DNA from: Williamsia limnetica
GTDB lineage: Bacteria; Actinomycetota; Actinomycetes; Mycobacteriales; Mycobacteriaceae
Reading direction: 5' to 3'
Assembly: GCF_003217475.1 (NCBI RefSeq)
Contig: NZ_QJSP01000006.1
Span: forward strand, 1 to 49,781
Length of the DNA: 49,781 bases
The position numbers were made by a program, and so were the translations under genes. The notes below the pieces were generated by a model that was given only the letters and a program-made list of their open reading frames with translations, did not search any database and was not told the origin of the DNA. Below are positions 13,724 to 23,857 of the stretch, one piece after another (position 1 is the first letter of the stretch; every line of letters starts with the position of its first letter).

Positions 13724-14953
13724 CTATTGGTCGTCGCGCCAAAGGCGAAGCCGACCGAACACCACGAGTCCGGCAGCGGCAATGGCGGTGAGTCCGCCAC
13801 CGTAGACCGCTATGGCAACGGGTGGAGGCAGGACTGATCCGAGGGCTCCCGCGAGCATCGAACCAAAGGCGCCGCCGAGGACCGTCATGGCGCTCCAAAC
13901 ACTGTTGATTCGGCCGCGAAGGCGGTCCGGTGTACTGCGTTGCAGCAACGTGAACTCAAGGATTGCCCGCACGCCGATGGCAAGACCTGCTGCCATGAGG
14001 AATAGGAACGTTGCCCACAACCAGGGGGTCGCGCCGGTGAGAGCAATGAGGCCCAAGCCGGCGGGAGCGACCACGAGGATGAGCAAGCCCTTACGTTCAA
14101 ATGTAGCGACCCATCCGCTGGTAACCGATCCGATACCCGCTCCGAGAGCGATACCGGAGTAAAGCAGTCCCGCGGCGCGGGGATCGTTGCCGAAGCGGTG
14201 ATCGACCAGCGCGGGGATCAGGACCGTCATGCCTGCGCCCAGCAGCGCGACGACACCGATGAACAAGACTGACCGGATCACCGGACGGTTCCACGCAAAG
14301 TGCAGGCCCTCAATCAGTGACCGCGCCGGATGTATGGACTCGGCGCCTTCGGGCCGAAGGGGCGGCAGACTCGAGAGCAATGGCAGCGTCGCAAACGTAC
14401 CCAACGCTGCTGCGCTGTAGTTCCACGTGACACCGCCCGCCGCGATGACCAGCCCACCGACCGCCGGAGCAGTCATCATTCCGACTTCTGCGGTCAAGCC
14501 ATTGATTGCTGCTGCCGCGGAGAACTTGTCCGGAGAAATTAGCCCGGGAGTCGCAGCGAGCAGGGCGGTGAAGCTGATCGCGCCCAGGCCCCCATCGACA
14601 GCGCCGAGGACATAGATGGCAAGGACGCTGGGATCGTCGAACATCGCGTTCACCGCTAGCCCGGCAAATGCGAGCCCACAGAGACAGCGACTCCACAGGA
14701 TCAACGGGCGGCGGTCGTTGCGATCGGCGAGCACACCGCCGAGCAGCGAACCGGCGAATGTGGCCACCCCGGTTGTTGTTGCGACAGCACCCACTTGGGT
14801 ACTTGATCCGGTGAGCGCATATACCTGCACAGAGACCGCAACCGTGAGCATACCGATACCGAAGACATTGATCGCTCTCGCAATGACGATATTCCGGAAT
14901 GGGCGGCTCTCTCGCAACGGGCTGGTATCGAGAAGAATTCTGCTGGCCGGCAC
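13724..14953 (-). CDS. MFS transporter, EntS-like siderophore exporter
   Basis: A 409-residue major facilitator protein with about 12 hydrophobic helices. It opens with SRPFRNIVIARAINVFGIGM and has the loop 2-3 motif GGVLADRNDRRPL, a pattern typical of the MFS_3/EntS group that exports enterobactin-like siderophores. The C-terminal half contains RGRINSVWSAM, another EntS-type feature. Its location downstream of the siderophore-binding lipoprotein and reductase genes supports a role in siderophore or related metabolite export. No siderophore synthetase is present in the window. The gap to the upstream gene is 517 bases, so it may have its own promoter; I see no iron box there. Confidence 0.85.
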   Translation of the reverse strand: MPASRILLDTSPLRESRPFRNIVIARAINVFGIGMLTVAVSVQVYALTGSSTQVGAVATTTGVATFAGSLLGGVLADRNDRRPLILWSRCLCGLAFAGLAVNAMFDDPSVLAIYVLGAVDGGLGAISFTALLAATPGLISPDKFSAAAAINGLTAEVGMMTAPAVGGLVIAAGGVTWNYSAAALGTFATLPLLSSLPPLRPEGAESIHPARSLIEGLHFAWNRPVIRSVLFIGVVALLGAGMTVLIPALVDHRFGNDPRAAGLLYSGIALGAGIGSVTSGWVATFERKGLLILVVAPAGLGLIALTGATPWLWATFLFLMAAGLAIGVRAILEFTLLQRSTPDRLRGRINSVWSAMTVLGGAFGSMLAGALGSVLPPPVAIAVYGGGLTAIAAAGLVVFGRLRLWRDDQ

Positions 14954-15470
14954 AAGCTACCTATCGCTGGAAGCCAAACGAAAATGCTACAAATTTCACT
15001 AGACGTTAGACGCGCAGGGCGATCGCCCGCCAGCAGTCTTCGCGTCTACGTTCATCTGCCGCGGCGGATCTGATCAGCCAATTTCTCTGCGCAATCTTTG
15101 TGGGGCGGCCTCCTTGACTGTAATCTCGCTGCCTGCAGCGGAGTTGAACTATCGTGTTAAGGCCACTTAGCTGCCGGAGGCGCATTTGTTCGTTCGCCTA
15201 GTCGTAGCTGCGGATGATGTTGGCCGGGCCCCGGCGTGCTGACCGATCGACGTCCGGACGGTGTAACCAACCTCCGATGGCCCGAACGCCAATGCAAGCT
15301 GGCGGTAGCGGGTCGGTGTCATGGCTCGGGGCACGTCTGCGTGTTCGCGACTGCCGTGTATCTCGCTCTGGCCGCAATGGCGAAAGCCCGCGGGGTCTCT
15401 GAAGGCTTCCGGAAACGACTCATCCCGGGGGCTGAGTCGAGTTCAGAATTGTAGAAGTTGAGCGGGGTCT
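14954..15470. other. 517-base gap between MFS and binding-protein genes
   Basis: No gene with a credible start or family is visible on either strand; two overlapping plus-strand frames of 62 and 72 codons lack family resemblance. It presumably contains the MFS promoter near 14960-15010, where the sequence is AT-rich. I found no TTAGG-type iron box. Confidence 0.4.
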
Positions 15471-16472
15471 CTACTGGCCGGCCTTATTCAAGGTCGATGC
15501 CTCGAGGGACGGAACGGTTTCGTCCATGAGGTAGGTTAGCGCGCCTGGAGCGGGGAAAGTTGCGGCGTTGGCCATGGCTGGGTCGCCGAAGATCACCGTC
15601 CCGTTTTTGGATGCCGGAAGCTCGGCGAACCTTGGATCTGATTCGAGCTTTGCCTGATCGCTGTCGTTGAACACGTAAGCAAGCAGTACGTCAGCCGAGA
15701 GCTGGTCCAGGTTCTCCGGAGACAGGGGTGCGTCGGTGTAGCTTCCCTGGGTTTGACCGGGCGTCAGACCCAGGAGGGCGAGCCAGCCCCCGGACCCGAA
15801 CTGGTAACCGGCCTCTCGTACGGCGACCGAGTTGAATGTCCTGCCTTCCAGTTGGGCGACGCGCTCCTTGTTCTGTGCGACCTGGGCGTCGAAGTCGGCG
15901 AGCACGACGTCGACTGCCTGAGTCTGTTGGGTCAATTCGCCCACGGCCTTCATGTCGACTGTCCACTCGGTGGTGGCACTTCCGTCGTCGGTACTGACGT
16001 AGGTCGGTGCGATCGCGGAGACGTCGTCGTACATGTCTTCGGGAATGGTCCAGGTGTGACCGAGGATGAGATCAGGCTCGTAGCTCGCGATCTTCTCCAG
16101 GCTGGGCTTGAACTCACTGGTCACCAGTTCGGGGGCCACCTCGCCTTCGTACCTACCCGCGAGCCACGGGTAGTTACTGTCAAAGTCAGCGGCAGGAATG
16201 GCACCTGTAGCGAAAGCGACCGGCTGGATATCGATGGACGACAACATATCGACGTAGGAGGGCGACATGACGAGGATGCGTTCTGGCTCTTTGTCGAGCG
16301 AGATCTGACCGTAGGCACTGTCGACCGTGACCGGGTAGCTGCCGCTGGATTCGGAGGAGCGAGTGTCATCATCGCCCCCAGAGTCGCTGCCGCAGGCGGT
16401 CACGGCCAGGGCCGCGGTCAATGCAATGGCAGCGAGGGTTGCTGCTCGTCTCATGCGTGAGTACGTGTTCAT
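15471..16472 (-). CDS. Iron-siderophore ABC transporter substrate-binding lipoprotein
   Basis: A 333-residue FecB/FepB-type periplasmic-binding-like protein. The signal peptide ends in a lipobox, VTAC with the lipidated cysteine at 27, followed by a Ser/Asp-rich linker (to about residue 45), so it is anchored on the outer face of the membrane. The binding fold starts at YPVTVDSAYGQISLDKEPER and has the family segments ILVMSPSYVDMLSSI and KIASYEPDLILGHTW. It starts 28 bases after the reductase-methyltransferase gene with an AAAGG ribosome binding site, so both probably share one iron-regulated transcript. The matching permease and ATPase are not in the window. Confidence 0.92.
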   Translation of the reverse strand: MNTYSRMRRAATLAAIALTAALAVTACGSDSGGDDDTRSSESSGSYPVTVDSAYGQISLDKEPERILVMSPSYVDMLSSIDIQPVAFATGAIPAADFDSNYPWLAGRYEGEVAPELVTSEFKPSLEKIASYEPDLILGHTWTIPEDMYDDVSAIAPTYVSTDDGSATTEWTVDMKAVGELTQQTQAVDVVLADFDAQVAQNKERVAQLEGRTFNSVAVREAGYQFGSGGWLALLGLTPGQTQGSYTDAPLSPENLDQLSADVLLAYVFNDSDQAKLESDPRFAELPASKNGTVIFGDPAMANAATFPAPGALTYLMDETVPSLEASTLNKAGQ

Positions 16473-16500
16473 TCGGGTGGTGCCTTTCTTTGCGCAGAGT

Positions 16501-18348
16501 TCAAAGGGTCAGGACGTGGACGGTGGTGTCCCATCCGATGGTTTGGTTGCCTGCTGGTCGTAGGCCAGCGGCTGTGAACACCGCATGCAGGGCGTCGGGG
16601 GTACGGATTCCACTGCCGTGGAGGCTGTAGGCGAGGAGATCGGCTTCGGTCTGGTGTTCGTCGTGCTCGTCGTGGAGAAGGTGCTCGATGACGAGGATCC
16701 GTCCGCCTGGGGCCAGGCCGGTGGTGGCCTGGCGTAGGGCGTGGGCGGCGTCGGCGTCGCCGTGGGCACCGAGTTGGTCGACGAGCAGGATCGCGTCGGC
16801 AGCGGCTGTGGTTTCGAACAGCGACTGCTCTGTCAGCGCGACTCGCACGCGATCGTCATGGTTGCCGATCGTGGCCGCGAGGTCATCGCGGACCCGAATG
16901 AGATGGGAGGGGAGCCCAGCGATGGTGATGAGAAGATGCGGGTGGGCGCCCAGTATCGCGGCAGCGAAGACCGCGGGGGCGTCGGCGCGGATGAGCAGGT
17001 GGTCGATCCCGGCCACGGCGTCGGAGCGAGCCAGCGGCTCGGCGATGTAGCCGGCGAACTCGGCGTTGTGGTCGTGATGTTTGGTGGCGTACCAGTCCTC
17101 GGACAGGAGCTGCTTATACGACGTGCCGGTGGCCTGCGTATAGCCCTCGGTTCCGGTGCGGATCGCTTCAGTGAGGCCGTGATAGGCCACTTCACGTCGG
17201 GCATGGTAACCGTCCTCGTGGAGGACCTCGACAACAAAGTCATCGGTCAGATACTCACCGATCTCGCTGAGTCGGTAGTGGCCCGGTTTGGCCTTATCGA
17301 GGAGGTTGATAGCGGTGAGGTAACGCAGAAGCTTGCCCACCCCGACCGGATCCCCGCCGCACGCGGCAGCCAGCGCCTCAGCGCTGGTGATGCCACGGGA
17401 GATCAGATCGGGAATGCCGAGGGTCACGGCGGTCCGCATCGCGAACGGTGGCAACAGTTCGCCCAGTTCGTGGAGCGTTTCGAACGCTTCCTCATTGCGT
17501 TCGGGATCGGGAACAGCGGGATCGTCATCGAGGGTGATGACCTCGCCGTGGCGCCAGTACCCCGTGAACTGAACGTCGTGTTTGTCCATCCCGCGCTCGT
17601 CCACTAGATGTCGCCGAATCGTCTTGACGGTGGACGACTCCCCAGCAATCCATGCGAACGTCGACCCGTCCCACCAGTGCGCCGATTGCACGGCGTCGAT
17701 CAGCAGCGTGCTCGTTCCCGCGCGTATTCCGTCACGGATCAGCCACGTCACGGAAACTCCATCCAGTTCGCGTAACTGCAGCTGATGATCGGCGTGGGCA
17801 ACCTCGACGAACACTTGCCCCTTCGCATCAGCAGGCAATTGTTCTAACAACCGGGAAATCGCGGGTAGAGCGGTGTCATCCCCGGCGACCAGCAACCAAT
17901 CGGCGTCAGGCAGGGCATGGCTTGCTACCGGACCCGCGATATGGATCCGGTCACCGGGCTGGGCCCGGTATGCCCACGATGTCGCGGTCCCGGTTCCGTG
18001 CCTGACGAAATCCACATCAAGCTCACCGGCCTCGGGATCGAAACGGCGCACGGTGTAGACCTTTGACAACACACGGGGGTCTTTTGGCCACTGCAGATGT
18101 CCCTCGCGCTGTGTCGGGAGCACAGGGTCGGTCCTGCCCGGGTAAGGGAAGATCAGCCTGATGTCGTCATCGAACCCATCACTGCGCAACGCCGACTGGG
18201 GCAGACTGTTCGCCGAGGTGAACGCGCCCAACTGATCACCGGAAAGCGTCACCCGACGTAGACCCGGCGTCACATCCGAGATGCGGGCCACCCAGAGCTC
18301 TCGCAGCGCAATGGGGTGCACCGTCACACGGCGCGACGATTTCGGCAT
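16501..18348 (-). CDS. Siderophore-interacting reductase fused to an O-methyltransferase-like domain
   Basis: A 615-residue fusion. Residues 1-270 are a siderophore-interacting flavoprotein (ViuB/SIP): an N-terminal FAD-binding barrel with VYTVRRF (98-103 region), WLLVAGDDTALPAI and a C-terminal AGESSTVKTIRRHL plus GYWRHGE. Such enzymes reduce ferric siderophores in the cytoplasm to release iron. Residues about 285-615 have the fold order of plant-type O-methyltransferases: a helical dimerisation domain (LLPPFAMRTAVTLGIPDLIS), then a Rossmann part ending GGRILVIEHLL. The expected SAM loop (usually a VDVGGGxG-like stretch) is replaced around 450-465 by LLIRADAPAVF, with no glycines, so methyl transfer is doubtful. 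First gene of the operon with the binding lipoprotein; an iron box lies upstream. Confidence 0.88.
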   Translation of the reverse strand: MPKSSRRVTVHPIALRELWVARISDVTPGLRRVTLSGDQLGAFTSANSLPQSALRSDGFDDDIRLIFPYPGRTDPVLPTQREGHLQWPKDPRVLSKVYTVRRFDPEAGELDVDFVRHGTGTATSWAYRAQPGDRIHIAGPVASHALPDADWLLVAGDDTALPAISRLLEQLPADAKGQVFVEVAHADHQLQLRELDGVSVTWLIRDGIRAGTSTLLIDAVQSAHWWDGSTFAWIAGESSTVKTIRRHLVDERGMDKHDVQFTGYWRHGEVITLDDDPAVPDPERNEEAFETLHELGELLPPFAMRTAVTLGIPDLISRGITSAEALAAACGGDPVGVGKLLRYLTAINLLDKAKPGHYRLSEIGEYLTDDFVVEVLHEDGYHARREVAYHGLTEAIRTGTEGYTQATGTSYKQLLSEDWYATKHHDHNAEFAGYIAEPLARSDAVAGIDHLLIRADAPAVFAAAILGAHPHLLITIAGLPSHLIRVRDDLAATIGNHDDRVRVALTEQSLFETTAAADAILLVDQLGAHGDADAAHALRQATTGLAPGGRILVIEHLLHDEHDEHQTEADLLAYSLHGSGIRTPDALHAVFTAAGLRPAGNQTIGWDTTVHVLTL

Positions 18349-18442: not shown

Positions 18443-18509
18443 GACCTTGTCTGGGGTGCGTAAACTGTCAACTAGTTGATGTTTTATGCGAGGGGGAGGA
18501 CACACGGTC

Positions 18510-20096
18510 GTGCTCGATGACTCCGCGGGGTCGCTCGGCGCGAAACCACCGCCGATTCCTCCGTGTCAGATGGCTGAGCGGTGGAGTCGCGGCGAGCACC
18601 TGCTGTTCTGGGTATTTGCAGGACATGCAAGTGTGAGGCTCGCGAACGGTGAGGTCTATCCACTCGGTGCTGGTGAGGGACTATGGGTGCCTGCCGACAC
18701 CGGCCGTTCCTTACGCACTGAAGCCGAGTCCGTAGCAATCCCGATCCTGATCCAACCAGGCAACCTCACATCGCCGCTCGAACACGTCGTTCGCTTCGAT
18801 GTGCCCGACGGGTGGCGCGACTGGCTGGTCCAGCACTACGTTCACTGGTTCTCGCCGGTCACCCGACGTGGCTACACCCCAGCAGAGATGCTCGAGGTCG
18901 TCTCGATCCGAGGACCGAAGCGGCACAAGAGAACCGGGCTTGGTGCACCTCCGAATCCGCCAGCCCGCGTCCTGCTGCCGCGATCACCATCCGCGCGCCT
19001 AGTGGCTCGAGCACTGATGCGCAACCCCGCCTTGGACCACACGGTAGAACAGTGGGCCGCACTCGTCTCGTCAAGTCCAAGCACCCTGCGCCGGGACTTC
19101 ATCAACGACACCGGCCTGACTTTCGCCCGCTGGCGTGCCCGATGCCGACTCTCAAGGGCCGAAGACCTACTTGCAGCCGGCCACGACGACATCGGCTGGG
19201 TAGCCCACAACGTCGGCTTCAGCAGCCGCAACGGGTTCACTCGTGCCTTTCGCGCCGAGTATCAACACCCCCCGTCGTCCGTCGCCAAGACCGCTGACGT
19301 CCCGACGCCCCTGCGGTCGCCTCGGCCCGCAGCCTTTGGGGATGGCCTTCAAGATTTACTCGGCGACCAGACCACATCCTCGACTGATGCACGCCTCGTC
19401 CCCGCGACTGCCTCACCTCCGCTGAAGTTCGAGGACGAGAGTGTGCTGTTGTGGACGTACAAAGGCACGTCATGGGCGCGCATCGGCGATCAGGAGTTCA
19501 CTCGTTCCCGAGGGGACGCTATCTGGCTCATTGCGGGCCACCCCCATGAAACCCGTTCGGCGGAGAACTGTATTGATGTCCCCATCGGCAGTCTCTTCGC
19601 TCCCGACATGCCAATACGTGCGCCGCTCAGGACCAGCTTCACTCCGTCCTGGGACGCTTACCTGCTGCACTGCTCAGTCGCCAGTTACACCATGCTGCGA
19701 CCCGACAGTTACGACCCGCTGCATGTCCTCAAACTGTTCGATGAACAGCTCACGGCGCAAAGAGCTACGGTCGTGCCCATGCCGGACGACCCGGTCGCCC
19801 GAACGGCCGCGACAGCATTCTTACGAAACCTGCGTACCTCAGAGTGGCCGACGTCGACCACGCAGAAAACGACGCTCGACGGCGTCTTCCGCCGCGAGAC
19901 GGGAATGACGCTGGCTGCCTGGCAGCGCGCCGCGCGAATGCGGATCGCCTGCTCCCTTCTTGCCGAGGGAGTCAAACCCGGAAGCGTGGCTAGCAGGATC
20001 GGCTACACCAATCTCAGCGCCTTCAGCCACGCATTCACTCGCTTTTACGGGGTCTCTCCGCGCAAATTCCAGCGAGGCGCAATCTCAAGTAGCTAA
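18510..20096 (+). CDS. Tandem-duplicated AraC family regulator (two cupin-HTH units)
   Basis: About 528 residues containing two complete AraC-type regulators in one chain. Unit 1: a cupin-like sensor (HLLFWVFAGHASVRLANGEV, PLGAGEGLWVPA) and an AraC helix-turn-helix pair ending in AHNVGFSSRNGFTRAFRAE. A linker rich in Pro/Ser follows. Unit 2: a second cupin (VLLWTYKGTSWARIG, RGDAIWLIAGHPHE) and a second helix-turn-helix ending in RIGYTNLSAFSHAFTRFYG. The halves are similar in layout but diverged. A strong GGGGGAGG (18492-18499) favours the GTG at 18510; an in-frame ATG at 18486 would place this site inside the gene. It diverges from the reductase operon and probably activates it when a siderophore or related ligand is bound. 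Confidence 0.85.
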   Translation: MLDDSAGSLGAKPPPIPPCQMAERWSRGEHLLFWVFAGHASVRLANGEVYPLGAGEGLWVPADTGRSLRTEAESVAIPILIQPGNLTSPLEHVVRFDVPDGWRDWLVQHYVHWFSPVTRRGYTPAEMLEVVSIRGPKRHKRTGLGAPPNPPARVLLPRSPSARLVARALMRNPALDHTVEQWAALVSSSPSTLRRDFINDTGLTFARWRARCRLSRAEDLLAAGHDDIGWVAHNVGFSSRNGFTRAFRAEYQHPPSSVAKTADVPTPLRSPRPAAFGDGLQDLLGDQTTSSTDARLVPATASPPLKFEDESVLLWTYKGTSWARIGDQEFTRSRGDAIWLIAGHPHETRSAENCIDVPIGSLFAPDMPIRAPLRTSFTPSWDAYLLHCSVASYTMLRPDSYDPLHVLKLFDEQLTAQRATVVPMPDDPVARTAATAFLRNLRTSEWPTSTTQKTTLDGVFRRETGMTLAAWQRAARMRIACSLLAEGVKPGSVASRIGYTNLSAFSHAFTRFYGVSPRKFQRGAISSS

Positions 20097-20336
20097 GCAG
20101 CCCTCCGGGTCGCGGCTGGAACGCGAGCGGACTTGCGCGCATGTCATCCACCAACGTGAAGGATCACGGCGAGGTGGTGTCTACCACCGAATTGCCTAAC
20201 TGTTGTGGGGCAAAATCTTTGCTCTCTTTGCATCCGCGTCGGGGATGTCGGGCGGAGTAGCCAACTGACGCGCCGCGACTGGCCCGCCCGAGGTCGTTCT
20301 GTCTGATCAGTTGGACGCAGTGCTACCGGGCGGTGG

Positions 20337-21512
20337 TTATGGCCAGTAGTGGCGGGATTGGAAGTATTGGGTGGCTTCGGGTTCGGTGGTGTACTCGAGG
20401 AGGTTGCCGAGTTTGGTGGCGAGGACGTCGCGGACTTGCGCGGGGGTGGCGAAGAAGAACTCTCGTCGTGGGTTGGCGTGGTTGAGTCGCAGTTTTGTGA
20501 ACTGTTGATGCAGTTGGTTTTCGAGTGTGACGGCGTCGTCGGAGAAGTAGATGGCGTGGACGTCGAAGGGAAAGGGGACTGATGCGCTGCTGAGTTCTCG
20601 GATGCGGTCGAGTGGCTCGAGTCGGCGGGTGAGTCCGATCTTGACGACATTGGGGCCGAAGGCTCCGATGTTGGAGATGACGTAGACGTAGCCGGCCCGG
20701 ATGTTTGCGGCGCGGTAGTCGTTGTCGGCGATGGCTTGGTCGAGGCGTTCGAGCTCCTGCTGTGCTTCGTCGCGTTCGGCGGTGCTGGTGACGCGGTCGA
20801 GGAGATTCCGGTAGTGCTCGCGTTCTTTGTCGAGGAGCCGTCGTTGGTTGGCGAGTTCTTGTTCGGCTTTGCGTTCGTCTTTGAGGCGTTCGCGTTCTTC
20901 GCGGGCGGCTTCGCGTTCGTCCTGGACTTTCATGAGGTAATCGGCGGTGAGTTCGAGTTCCTGGGTGCGGAGCCCGTGGTAGGCGGCGGCGATGCGCATT
21001 TGCATGATGGCGCCGTGCTTTTCGATGTCAGCGGCTGCTTTGTTGAGCCGGCGGGTCGCGGTGACGAGGTTGCCGGCGCGAATGGTGCGGACGCAGTTCT
21101 CGGCCTCGGCGTTGTAGGCGCGGAGCATCAGTTTGGCGAGGTCCCCGGTGAGCCGTCGACCTTGGGCGAGAGAGTTGTTGAAGCTGAACTGCTTTGACAC
21201 TTCTATGGCGTCGCCGCGGGAGATGGCGTCTCGGATCTGCGAACGCAGCGCGGCGAGACTGAGTTTGTACGCCTCGGCGTTCTCGAGGGGATGGTGATAC
21301 TCGTACAGTCCGACTTCCTGCAGAACGAGCGCGTCGTCTACTTTGATGACTCGTTCGTCGACGTCGGCTGTGGCAGGGGCAGAGACCCGCGGAGGCACGT
21401 GCTTGAGCTGCGTGGTCAATTCGGTGACCTTGTCCTGCAGGTTCGCCGCTTCACGCTCTTTTTCGACGAGAGTGCGGCGCAATGCGGTGATGACATCTTG
21501 GGGGTTGCTCAT
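20337..21512 (-). CDS. DUF4041 protein with C-terminal T5orf172 GIY-YIG nuclease domain
   Basis: A 391-residue protein in three parts. Residues 8-38 form a coiled coil. About 60-230 resemble DUF4041, mostly helical, with a long charged coiled coil at 195-260. From 272 on is a T5orf172-type GIY-YIG domain: GYVYVIS (274-280) as the GIY-like strand, NVVKIGLTRR with KIG (291-293) as the YIG-like strand, the conserved arginine at 303, and the metal-binding glutamate candidate E331 in TLENQLHQQF. GIY-YIG domains cut DNA; DUF4041 proteins occur in phages and bacterial islands. The ATG overlaps the stop of the upstream gene as ATGA, so the two products are made together and probably interact. I infer a defence-type role, without direct proof. 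Confidence 0.85.
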   Translation of the reverse strand: MSNPQDVITALRRTLVEKEREAANLQDKVTELTTQLKHVPPRVSAPATADVDERVIKVDDALVLQEVGLYEYHHPLENAEAYKLSLAALRSQIRDAISRGDAIEVSKQFSFNNSLAQGRRLTGDLAKLMLRAYNAEAENCVRTIRAGNLVTATRRLNKAAADIEKHGAIMQMRIAAAYHGLRTQELELTADYLMKVQDEREAAREERERLKDERKAEQELANQRRLLDKEREHYRNLLDRVTSTAERDEAQQELERLDQAIADNDYRAANIRAGYVYVISNIGAFGPNVVKIGLTRRLEPLDRIRELSSASVPFPFDVHAIYFSDDAVTLENQLHQQFTKLRLNHANPRREFFFATPAQVRDVLATKLGNLLEYTTEPEATQYFQSRHYWP

Positions 21513-22774
21513 CCGCGGACACCTTGTCCGGAAAGGGGGATCAGGCCGTACGGGTTCTTGGACACGGCTGCGGCCAGGTGCTTGAGAGTTTCGATGGGTT
21601 CGACTCGGGATAAGTCGATGGCCAGGAAGCTTTGACGGCCGATGGCGAGTTGCGCGAGCGGTATTCGCCGGTCGTGGCCAGTTGCTGGGTCGACGGTGTC
21701 GACGGCGACGGTCAGGGAAATGGCGTCGATGATGCCTTCTCTGTCGGCTTCGAACACTTCGTGCGGGGTGCGTAACGAAGTCTGATGGATGGCGTTGTTG
21801 TATCGGCGCTTGAGCTCGGCGGCAGACAGCCGCGTTGTGGTGAACTCGTCCTTGGCCTTGACGTAGCGGACGGCTTTCACCGCGGGGAACTGATCTGGGG
21901 TTGGTACGAGGACGGTCACCGCGAGTTCGCGGTCAGCAGTGATGAACTCGTAGTCGTAGTCGACCTGGAACTGTTCGGGGTAGGTGGAGTTGGCGAGCAC
22001 GATGCCGACGTATTGCTCGAGCGCGCGCCCGTCGCCGTTTCGTAGACCGGCGATGAGCTGGTCGAGCTCGGAGTTGGCTCGTTGGATTTCCTCGCGCCGA
22101 GATTGATTCGCAGCGTCGTGGTCTCGCTGGGCTTGTTCGAGTCGGGTAAGGCGGTCGAATTCGGTCGCGAGCCAAGTCTGGCGGGTGGCGCCGTTGCGGA
22201 TGAAGAGATTGTTGAGTTGGCCGTGCCAGTAGGTCATGTTGCTGGCGTACTGTGCGTGTGCGGCGGCGAGTTGTGCTTCGTATTTGCGTTGACCACCCAA
22301 TTTTGCGCTGAGACCGGTTGGCTGTTCGGGCGGATAGAAATGCGGTCGAGGCGGAATATCGATGTAGGTGGGGACCGGCGTCTCCGCCGTCAGGGTGCCG
22401 GCGTCGAGTGGTGTGGGTTCAAAGACTTGCCGGAGTCGTGTCAGGTCGACCCAGTCGTCAACCTCTAGCGTTGCTGCGAGTAGTTCCTCGATTTCTTGCT
22501 GTTGGGCGACTGCTTCGGCGGTCTTCTCTACGGCTTCGGCTTCGCATTCGGCAACGTACGCGGCCGCCATCTGCTTGTTGAGGCGAGCCTGTTCAGCAGT
22601 AGTAGATCTTCGCGCTGCGTCGGATGCTCTGCGATGGGCACTTGCTGCGCGCTGCCGAGCTAGTGCCGCCTGGTTGTACTGACGGACCGCGAGCCGCTGC
22701 TGCTGAGCCTGGCGCTTCGCGGCCAACTGCTGCTGATGCTGAAGTTCGGCGAAGAAACCGCGACGACGGGCCAT
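21509..22774 (-). CDS. Coiled-coil protein of unknown function, partner of the GIY-YIG protein
   Basis: A 421-residue protein. Residues 1-100 are a glutamine/alanine/arginine-rich coiled coil starting MARRRGFFAELQHQQQ. A proline-rich linker (116-155) and a second coiled coil (165-240) follow, then a compact alpha/beta domain (250-421): LEQYVGIVLANSTYPEQF, then ELAVTVLVPTPDQ, AVRYVKAKDEF, HEVFEADREGIIDAISLTV and a terminal AAAVSKNPYGLIPLSG. I recall similar actinobacterial proteins, generally called hypothetical or restriction-like, but can name no function. The acidic and lysine residues near 283-310 could mimic a PD-(D/E)xK core; that is speculation. The ATG at 22774 is preferred to an upstream one at 22816 because the family begins MARRRGFF. 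Confidence 0.8.
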   Translation of the reverse strand: MARRRGFFAELQHQQQLAAKRQAQQQRLAVRQYNQAALARQRAASAHRRASDAARRSTTAEQARLNKQMAAAYVAECEAEAVEKTAEAVAQQQEIEELLAATLEVDDWVDLTRLRQVFEPTPLDAGTLTAETPVPTYIDIPPRPHFYPPEQPTGLSAKLGGQRKYEAQLAAAHAQYASNMTYWHGQLNNLFIRNGATRQTWLATEFDRLTRLEQAQRDHDAANQSRREEIQRANSELDQLIAGLRNGDGRALEQYVGIVLANSTYPEQFQVDYDYEFITADRELAVTVLVPTPDQFPAVKAVRYVKAKDEFTTTRLSAAELKRRYNNAIHQTSLRTPHEVFEADREGIIDAISLTVAVDTVDPATGHDRRIPLAQLAIGRQSFLAIDLSRVEPIETLKHLAAAVSKNPYGLIPLSGQGVRG

Positions 22775-22890
22775 TGATTCTGAATACACCACGCGGCATC
22801 GAACTGCACGGAGCATCGTCGAATAGTTGCATTGAATTGCGCGTAACCAGATTCGCTGAGTTCAGCACGCAGTCAGAATCTCATCTGTTC

Positions 22891-23079
22891 GAACTCTATC
22901 GTAGTTTCTGGAAACCCTGTAGGAACGCCGCGAAGCGTTACCGCGGGCGTGCGGACTACGTTGAACTGGCAGGCTCGGATCACCTGATGATTGGTGGTCC
23001 CTTCATGCCAGCGGTCCTGGCAGAGTTCGACAGGTGGGTCGACATGAAGGGCATCAACAGCCAGTCGGTTGATGCCTGA
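22891..23079 (+). pseudogene. C-terminal fragment of an alpha/beta hydrolase gene
   Basis: About 62 codons in the plus direction resemble the end of an alpha/beta hydrolase: RYRGRADYVELAGSDHLMIG, with the catalytic-histidine context GSDH, then PAVLAEFDRWV, ending at a TGA (23077-23079). Everything upstream, including the nucleophile region, is missing; the fragment begins about 120 bases from the start of the coiled-coil gene, transcribed oppositely. The remnant suggests that the neighbouring module replaced or interrupted an older gene. Confidence 0.5.
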
Positions 23080-23164
23080 GTCGATGAGCGAGACTGTGGA
23101 ACCGCCGATCTGCTGCGCAGTTCGGTGCACGTACGCGGTTATGCGCGCCGATTCCTGTTCAGGA

Positions 23165-23857
23165 CTAGCTGATCTCGCCTTCCCGGTCAACGAATCGACC
23201 GGATCCGTGCCCGGGCCCCTCGGTGGCGAGGCCGACGATCGCGTCGGTACCTTCGGTGATGGTCTGGTGACCGGAGTGCCCATTGAAATCGGTTGCGGTG
23301 TAACCGGGATCCGCAGCGTTGATGCGGATGCCCACCAGAGCTTTTGCGTACTGCGTCGTCAGCATGGTCAGCGCCGCCTTTGAGGCTGTGTATATCGGGG
23401 CGACGACGTGCGATTCGGGACGAGTCGGATCGTGCGTCGCGGCAAGCGATCCCATTCCACTGCTGACGTTGATGACGACGGGATCCTCGGACCGCTTGAG
23501 GAGGGGAAGAAAGGCCGTGGTGGTCCGGACCACACCGGCGACGTTCACATCGAGAACACCCAGTACGTCGGCCCCGGTCAAGTCGCTTGGGTCGCCCATC
23601 GGCCCCGCGACGCCGGCGTTGTTGATGAGGACGTCGATCGACCCTTCGTGTTGCGCGACATTGTCTGCAGCCTCGGCCACCGATTGGTCATTGGTGACAT
23701 CTATCTGGACGAATCGAGCTCCGAGCGCATCGGCAGCCGCAGAACCTGCACTGCTGTCGCGGGCTCCGATCAGAACGGTCTGACCCTGTTCGATGAGGCG
23801 TCGAGCGGTCTCGTGTCCCAGGCCCTTGTTGGCTCCGGTGATAAAGGTGATTGTCAT
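23165..23857 (-). CDS. SDR family oxidoreductase
   Basis: A 230-residue short-chain dehydrogenase with a minimal fold: TGANKGLGHETAR at the cofactor loop, NNAG near 85, the serine region VINVSSGMGSL and the YTASK catalytic pair. The layout TITFITGANKGLGHETA is typical of the carbonyl-reductase-like SDRs found beside XRE regulators in actinobacteria. The open frame extends far upstream on this strand, but the ATG at 23857 gives the normal family start directly before strand 1. It diverges from the XRE regulator gene, separated by 101 bases. Confidence 0.9.
   Translation of the reverse strand: MTITFITGANKGLGHETARRLIEQGQTVLIGARDSSAGSAAADALGARFVQIDVTNDQSVAEAADNVAQHEGSIDVLINNAGVAGPMGDPSDLTGADVLGVLDVNVAGVVRTTTAFLPLLKRSEDPVVINVSSGMGSLAATHDPTRPESHVVAPIYTASKAALTMLTTQYAKALVGIRINAADPGYTATDFNGHSGHQTITEGTDAIVGLATEGPGHGSGRFVDREGEIS

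Follow-up and report, generated by a model that had tools for sequence, protein, structure and literature searches.

A SNIPE (PD-Lambda-1) nuclease gene of Williamsia limnetica overlaps the gene of an Mrr-less relative of a type IV restriction factor: a candidate two-gene anti-phage system

We investigated a pair of genes on the minus strand of a 49,781-nucleotide stretch of Williamsia limnetica DNA (contig NZ_QJSP01000006.1, positions 1 to 49,781; hereafter the window), which had been singled out from the letters of the sequence as a possible undescribed defence system. Both open reading frames (ORFs) were present as predicted. The first gene, P0001, runs from 22774 to 21509 and encodes 421 residues from an internal ATG, the mechanical ORF beginning 14 codons earlier; the second, P0002, runs from 21512 to 20337 and encodes 391 residues. 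The stop codon of P0001 and the start codon of P0002 overlap in an ATGA, and the two genes are presumably translationally coupled. The window's own genome holds a single copy of each. The features of the locus are as follows.

20337..21512, minus strand: P0002, SNIPE/PD-Lambda-1 nuclease, 391 residues (Pfam, PADLOC)
20421..20693, minus strand: GIY-YIG nuclease domain (T5orf172), P0002 residues 274-364 (Pfam)
20967..21134, minus strand: DUF4041, P0002 residues 127-182 (Pfam PF13250, 5.1e-18)
21509..21512, minus strand: ATGA in which the P0001 stop overlaps the P0002 start (sequence)
21509..22774, minus strand: P0001, coiled-coil partner, mREase_IV homologue without the C-terminal Mrr nuclease domain, 421 residues (PADLOC, Pfam)
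21575..22030, minus strand: C-terminal alpha/beta domain, P0001 residues ~249-400 (AlphaFold2; no structural match at E <= 0.001)
22040..22312, minus strand: second long helix, P0001 residues 155-245 (AlphaFold2)
22487..22756, minus strand: first long helical stretch, P0001 residues 7-96, with a break at 57-58 (AlphaFold2; predicted local distance difference test score, pLDDT, <50 for residues 1-12)
20332..22815, minus strand: 2.5-kb cassette, ~91% identical to genomes G005 and G006, whose flanking DNA differs from the window's

P0002 has the domains that the original prediction gave it: Pfam confirmed both DUF4041 and a C-terminal T5orf172 GIY-YIG domain (T5orf172, 8.9e-15; MUG113, 8.9e-17, on the same C-terminal part) in the 391-residue protein. 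The PADLOC profile for PD-Lambda-1 (PDLC03976) matched it at 6.9e-100. PD-Lambda-1 was first found in a functional screen in Escherichia coli (PMC9519451) and was renamed SNIPE when it was characterised in 2026 as a nuclease anchored in the membrane that cleaves phage DNA as it is injected (PMC13190303). In the E. coli protein, DUF4041 promotes DNA binding, the E414A change abolishes defence, deletion of the transmembrane segment is toxic, and the nuclease associates with the tape measure protein (PMC13190303). P0002 E331 (codon 20522-20520, minus strand) aligned with E414 of L013, an E. coli phage protein annotated as PD-lambda-1, and E331, Y277, G293, R297, H335 and F353 were identical in all 52 aligned SNIPE rows, a set from which 28 identifiers (repeat fetches, fragments and the decayed L030) had been excluded. 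By this alignment, the predicted catalytic glutamate of P0002 is intact. Relatives of P0002 were found in 40 phage records, and a PDB sequence search gave no match to it. The family is common in some genera, being present in 95 of 114 Clavibacter genomes (PMC11856565), and of two PD-Lambda-1 homologues tried in Streptococcus thermophilus, only one gave protection, and that against some phages (PMC12322248).

P0002 thus shares with SNIPE the order of its domains and the conserved GIY-YIG residues, but it differs in its short N-terminal part, in its partner gene and in having no transmembrane anchor: no hydrophobic window was found in it by hydropathy, the one measure applied. By the same measure, no transmembrane segment was found in 14 of 15 unpaired actinobacterial SNIPEs, none of which has a P0001 gene beside it. 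Two of the 16 unpaired proteins in this set were flagged, namely L013 and L074, the latter marginally and with a start that may be misassigned; the remnants or fragments L007, L084 and L094 had been set aside. Loss of the anchor as a mark of pairing was therefore rejected, the unpaired SNIPEs mostly lacking it too. Nor does the anchor define SNIPE, because 34% of 474 published homologues have none; the other 66% have one or two transmembrane segments, and other membrane-targeting N-termini have been proposed (PMC13190303). Many paired SNIPEs start with a repeat resembling FNPPPGWPxPPxGWxPPxxWxPDPxWP (for instance L042 from 6245, L038 from 6254 and L047 from 6200), in which Pfam recognised no family in the five proteins scanned. 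DUF2510 occupies its place in L012, the one unpaired actinobacterial SNIPE scanned, and the repeat may possibly be an envelope-targeting part.

We further compared P0001 with known families. Pfam reported nothing above its cut-off for P0001, Mrr_cat included, but the PADLOC profile mREase_IV (PDLC03663) matched at 3.7e-36 over positions 10-380 of its 544. Proteins of this kind, such as WP_075382261.1 of Methylobacterium oryzae, combine a coiled coil, an alpha/beta part and Mrr_cat; P0001 corresponds to the front of the profile but lacks Mrr_cat, and a SNIPE gene follows instead. Pfam placed a C-terminal Mrr_cat in eight of ten distant P0001 relatives, in the part that is missing from P0001, the two short relatives (in genomes G296 and G238) being without it. 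Judged from these comparisons, P0001 is an Mrr-type restriction factor that lacks its own nuclease. Its alpha/beta domain had been called unassigned; the protein proved homologous to mREase_IV, and the domain has no structural match at E <= 0.001.

An AlphaFold2 model of P0001, built from a 29-row alignment, reached a mean pLDDT of 88.3 (92.9 for the alpha/beta domain alone) and placed a confidently modelled alpha/beta domain after two long helical stretches, in agreement with the two coiled coils and alpha/beta domain foreseen for the 421-residue protein. A nuclease core had also been suspected in residues 250-421, and this was not borne out: Foldseek, run with the whole model against PDB and BFVD and with the alpha/beta domain alone against PDB, returned no match at E <= 0.001, and the nuclease of eight of the ten relatives is a separate Mrr_cat domain. 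The best PDB matches were sex-pheromone precursor proteins (2.2e-2 to 2.9e-2) and BFVD gave at best an uncharacterised protein of a siphovirus (5.5e-3, probability 1.00, TM-score 0.22/0.34). A nuclease fold in P0001 was rejected as a candidate, the matches to DinG (0.27), RecE (0.81) and lambda exonuclease (1.5) being weak. The order of the alpha/beta elements is, we presume, loosely like that of PD-(D/E)XK folds, an unproven likeness, and no catalytic motif was recognised in the domain. A PDB sequence search with a P0001 profile gave two weak matches, in its helical parts (E 0.03 and 0.041). Near its N-terminus P0001 carries the motif G-F-(F/L)-A-E-(L/M/I)-Q, which was present in 12 of 12 paired loci not found via that peptide and missing from all 12 Mrr-fused and all three nuclease-less relatives obtained in other ways; its invariance in the 30 seed-found loci is partly ascertainment, because FFAELQHQ was one of the P0001 peptide seeds. 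No P0001 relative was found in 50,697 phage records, and none of the 26 stretches of viral_contigs that matched a P0001 seed encoded one, in a search that finds close relatives only.

We also counted what accompanies P0001-like genes. Three profiles (P0001 core, Mrr tail, SNIPE) were used to tally 69 distinct places: 37 had an adjoining SNIPE gene and no Mrr domain by the Mrr profile, 23 had Mrr without SNIPE, nine had neither, and none had both. SNIPE absence was judged within flanks of 1.5 to 5 kb, and the Mrr profile, built from 11 tails, matches these by construction, Pfam having independently confirmed Mrr_cat in eight proteins. All 36 places where P0001 matched with at least 35% identity over at least 400 residues had an adjoining SNIPE gene. 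The two genes lay within 50 nucleotides of each other at 35 of the 37 pairs, an approximate figure that depends on taking as the nuclease start whichever in-frame start codon comes first near the end of P0001. Because it recurs as a pair at these 37 places, two of them broken copies (L030, L033), the arrangement is not a chance one. Among the 23 Mrr places, the Mrr part lies wholly or partly in a neighbouring frame in L105, L113 and L117, and the split L156 was not counted. The nine places with neither comprise two short genes (L028, L031), two truncated or disrupted ones (L102, L114), four fragments (L029, L061, L112, L116) and the marginal L118. In L156 (2482-4290, Pseudonocardia plasmid pBCI1-2) and L105, the mREase_IV core and Mrr occupy separate frames, which could be natural splits or frameshifts.

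Evenly drawn genome samples gave a similar picture, with the best five candidates scored per genome in the family and the best four in the phylum, so that matches may have been missed. Twenty-one of 301 family genomes had a P0001 relative (15 paired, three Mrr-fused, two short and alone, one broken), as did 19 of 396 phylum genomes (two paired, 13 with Mrr, four with neither). In one phylum genome, G499, 3.5 Mb separate a SNIPE from an Mrr-fused P0001. Paired loci came from Actinomycetota, Nitrospirota, Acidobacteriota, Planctomycetota and Pseudomonadota, those of Nitrospirota, Acidobacteriota and Pseudomonadota being metagenome bins with unconfirmed taxon assignment. The short relatives in G296 (L096, 4026-5156) and G238 (L097, 4436-5581) lie between glutamine synthetase type III and protein kinase genes, a position common to two species of one genus, and are possibly a domesticated copy.

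The history of the two genes was examined with trees. In the tree of the P0001 core domain, which included 33 of the 37 paired, 18 of the 23 Mrr and three of the nine remaining places, all 33 paired rows fell on one side of one branch (100/98.9), with Mrr-fused rows around them. The root of this tree was our choice, and given that root the Mrr fusion would be the older state. In the SNIPE tree, the paired label needed two changes, compared with a mean of 13.9 after shuffling. Distances between P0001 proteins and between P0002 proteins were correlated over 34 pairs (r = 0.895; 0 of 2000 permutations as high), a comparison that excludes the broken copies and L032, a near-copy of the window. Between the window and G005, dN (nonsynonymous divergence) and dS (synonymous divergence) were 0.042 and 0.413 for P0001 and 0.024 and 0.306 for P0002, and by these rates purifying selection evidently acts on both genes.

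These results make it probable that the SNIPE (PD-Lambda-1) anti-phage system exists here in a two-gene form, in which P0002 would cut DNA and P0001 would be a scaffold or targeting partner derived from an Mrr-type factor. We infer a role in anti-phage defence from sequence comparison. A mobile anti-phage module composed of a nuclease and a coiled-coil partner, as first proposed, remains the best reading; "undescribed" holds only in part, each half matching a known family. The profile searches suggested at the outset were run with Pfam and PADLOC, and PADLOC names the halves separately: one of them, P0002, belongs to a named system, SNIPE/PD-Lambda-1, so that the match to a named system that was to count against the proposal applies to one half. 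No characterised system with this exact pair was known to the original prediction, and none was described in the literature searched, the scope of which did not extend to supplements, subscription journals or preprints. A P0001-like partner is not mentioned in the covered parts of the SNIPE account (PMC13190303) or of a review (PMC12904381).

In the mechanism that we favour, P0001 and P0002 would be co-translated and form a complex, as the overlap, the co-occurrence and the co-inheritance suggest. The coiled coils and the alpha/beta domain of P0001 would recognise foreign DNA or its site of entry and hold P0002 there; DUF4041 of P0002 would bind the DNA and the GIY-YIG domain would cut it, so that, by analogy with E. 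coli SNIPE, phage DNA would be cleaved without cell suicide. On the origin of the pair, we conclude that by nuclease exchange the P0001 ancestor probably lost its C-terminal Mrr nuclease, for which a SNIPE GIY-YIG nuclease encoded in trans was substituted. About as likely as not, this recruitment by an Mrr-type recognition half made a two-component system in which the choice between self and non-self lies with P0001. McrB and McrC offer a parallel in that a nuclease is brought in by protein-protein contact and not by fusion (PMC3874153). The likeness is one of logic only; no NTPase was recognised in the pair, and its nuclease is of the GIY-YIG type.

Several observations weigh against this reading. 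P0002 has no transmembrane segment, whereas E. coli SNIPE without its own is toxic. In the family sample, 18 of 33 near-full-length SNIPEs (E <1e-80) were in genomes without a P0001 match, the other 15 being paired, and the short P0001 relatives of G238 and G296 stand alone with neither SNIPE nor Mrr. The correlation of P0001 and P0002 distances would also be expected from co-inheritance without interaction. Neighbours at 18 paired loci were mixed: 30 PADLOC families (E <= 1e-10) were spread over 118 neighbours, with no control set. Finally, the variability of the locus within the window's genus, described below, rests on a small base of nine genomes.

The missing anchor is also the starting point of an alternative that we consider unlikely, in which P0001 would be a localisation or safety subunit: P0002 itself would sense injection, through DUF4041 and tape-measure proteins, and P0001 would hold it at the membrane or keep it inactive. 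Such a role would suit a nuclease without the membrane anchor by which E. coli SNIPE avoids self-cleavage (PMC13190303), and the conserved motif at the start of P0001, found in 12 of 12 paired loci, fits it as well. However, P0001 lacks any hydrophobic segment (its 19-residue Kyte-Doolittle means reach at most 1.05), and it cannot simply be called a replacement anchor, because 14 of the 15 unpaired actinobacterial SNIPEs are equally free of transmembrane segments; with no P0001 beside them, they indicate that P0001 is not needed to restrain a SNIPE that has no anchor. In the relatives of P0001, moreover, the nuclease is Mrr, which fits a role that is not tied to SNIPE. Since these relatives work with a different nuclease and those SNIPEs have neither a transmembrane segment nor P0001, we prefer targeting over mere anchoring.

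More improbable still is that the pair restricts DNA according to its modification and has plasmids or transforming DNA, and not phage injection, as its main target. The relatives of P0001 are classed among type IV methyl-directed enzymes, and DNA that enters in modified form is restricted by type IV enzymes (PMC3874153), but the type IV label is a library annotation, and neither Pfam nor Foldseek recognised a modified-base-binding domain in P0001. We know of no tested member of its mREase_IV family. The filing of P0001 and P0002 under two families, and the many SNIPEs without P0001 (the 18 of 33 above), would suit a degenerate type IV enzyme and an ordinary SNIPE that serve defence independently and lie together by chance, but this is very unlikely in view of a SNIPE gene adjoining all 36 full-length close relatives of P0001, the ATGA overlap in the window, the single group with members from five phyla in the P0001 tree and the correlated distances.

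The surroundings of the pair bear on its mobility. The window, G005 and G006 have the 2.5-kb cassette in common, and the DNA directly beside the window's copy is not shared, G005 and G006 sharing with each other ~170 additional upstream bases and, downstream, another piece of 108 bases. The pair is present in three of nine genomes of the window's genus, and a remnant in a fourth: G006 has a stop in P0001 and a frameshift in P0002, and in G007 the last 87-88 residues of P0002 are all that remains. The module or its remnant lies ~0.8-0.9 kb from a tRNA Lys/Glu/Asp/Phe cluster in G006 and G007 and 7.5 kb from it in the window; in G005 the two are on different contigs. Within the genus the module therefore sits in variable surroundings and not in a fixed housekeeping position; conservation in such a position had been named as a finding that would count against the proposal. 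Elsewhere, the pair is found on a mobilizable plasmid of Kocuria rosea, with DUF262, HEPN and recombinase genes no more than 5 kb away, and P0001 relatives occur in 18 plasmid records, four of which were examined. We note that the G005 contig (NZ_JNYV01000014.1, C14, the same locus as L032) is titled Kitasatospora arboriphila NRRL B-24581 and falls in the window's genus by genome search; the record looks mislabelled or contaminated. G006, the same contig as L033, is titled Williamsia sp. 1135 and groups with G005.

The module has an AraC-type regulator and an SDR oxidoreductase around it in the window, and a siderophore block at a greater distance, so the description of the locus as free of obvious metabolic neighbours did not stand. 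The regulator is a 536-residue ORF (18486-20096) with two AraC-type DNA-binding parts, like two fused AraC regulators. The siderophore block (13724-18348), between the tRNA cluster and the module, encodes an EntS-type exporter (NCBIfam PRK10489, 430 bits against a cut-off of 324), an iron-siderophore binding protein and a 615-residue protein in which a siderophore-interacting part is fused to an O-methyltransferase. Adjacent gene debris had also been proposed and did not find support, the upstream ORFs at 22816-23079 (plus strand) and 22873-23283 (minus strand) having no Pfam match above the cut-off, in a scan for remnants that covered this side and not the stretch 20097-20336 on the other. 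Promoter-like sites (one found, 0.6 expected) and terminator-like sites (six found, 4.0 expected) were near chance, Rfam found four tRNAs and nothing else, and the G+C content of the module was not outstanding. For the neighbours at the 18 paired loci, 118 of 162 crude ORFs were scanned, the rest being the two genes of the pair and a number of ORFs that were short or lay at an edge, and 23 of the 25 PADLOC families shown had one member only. Because there was no control set, we make no claim of a defence island from the neighbourhood.

SNIPE represents a newly described way of discriminating self from phage by place and not by sequence. The locus adds a natural and widespread SNIPE lineage that has no anchor and has a dedicated partner, recognisable as the front part of another restriction family. 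Annotation by separate families probably reports such a locus as a lone PD-Lambda-1 and a weak type IV enzyme, missing the single unit. It can now be tested what restrains the anchor-free SNIPEs and what mREase_IV recognises through its non-nuclease part. If the nuclease exchange took place, discrimination in this lineage would rest on P0001, and not on the membrane anchoring and tape-measure binding of SNIPE alone.

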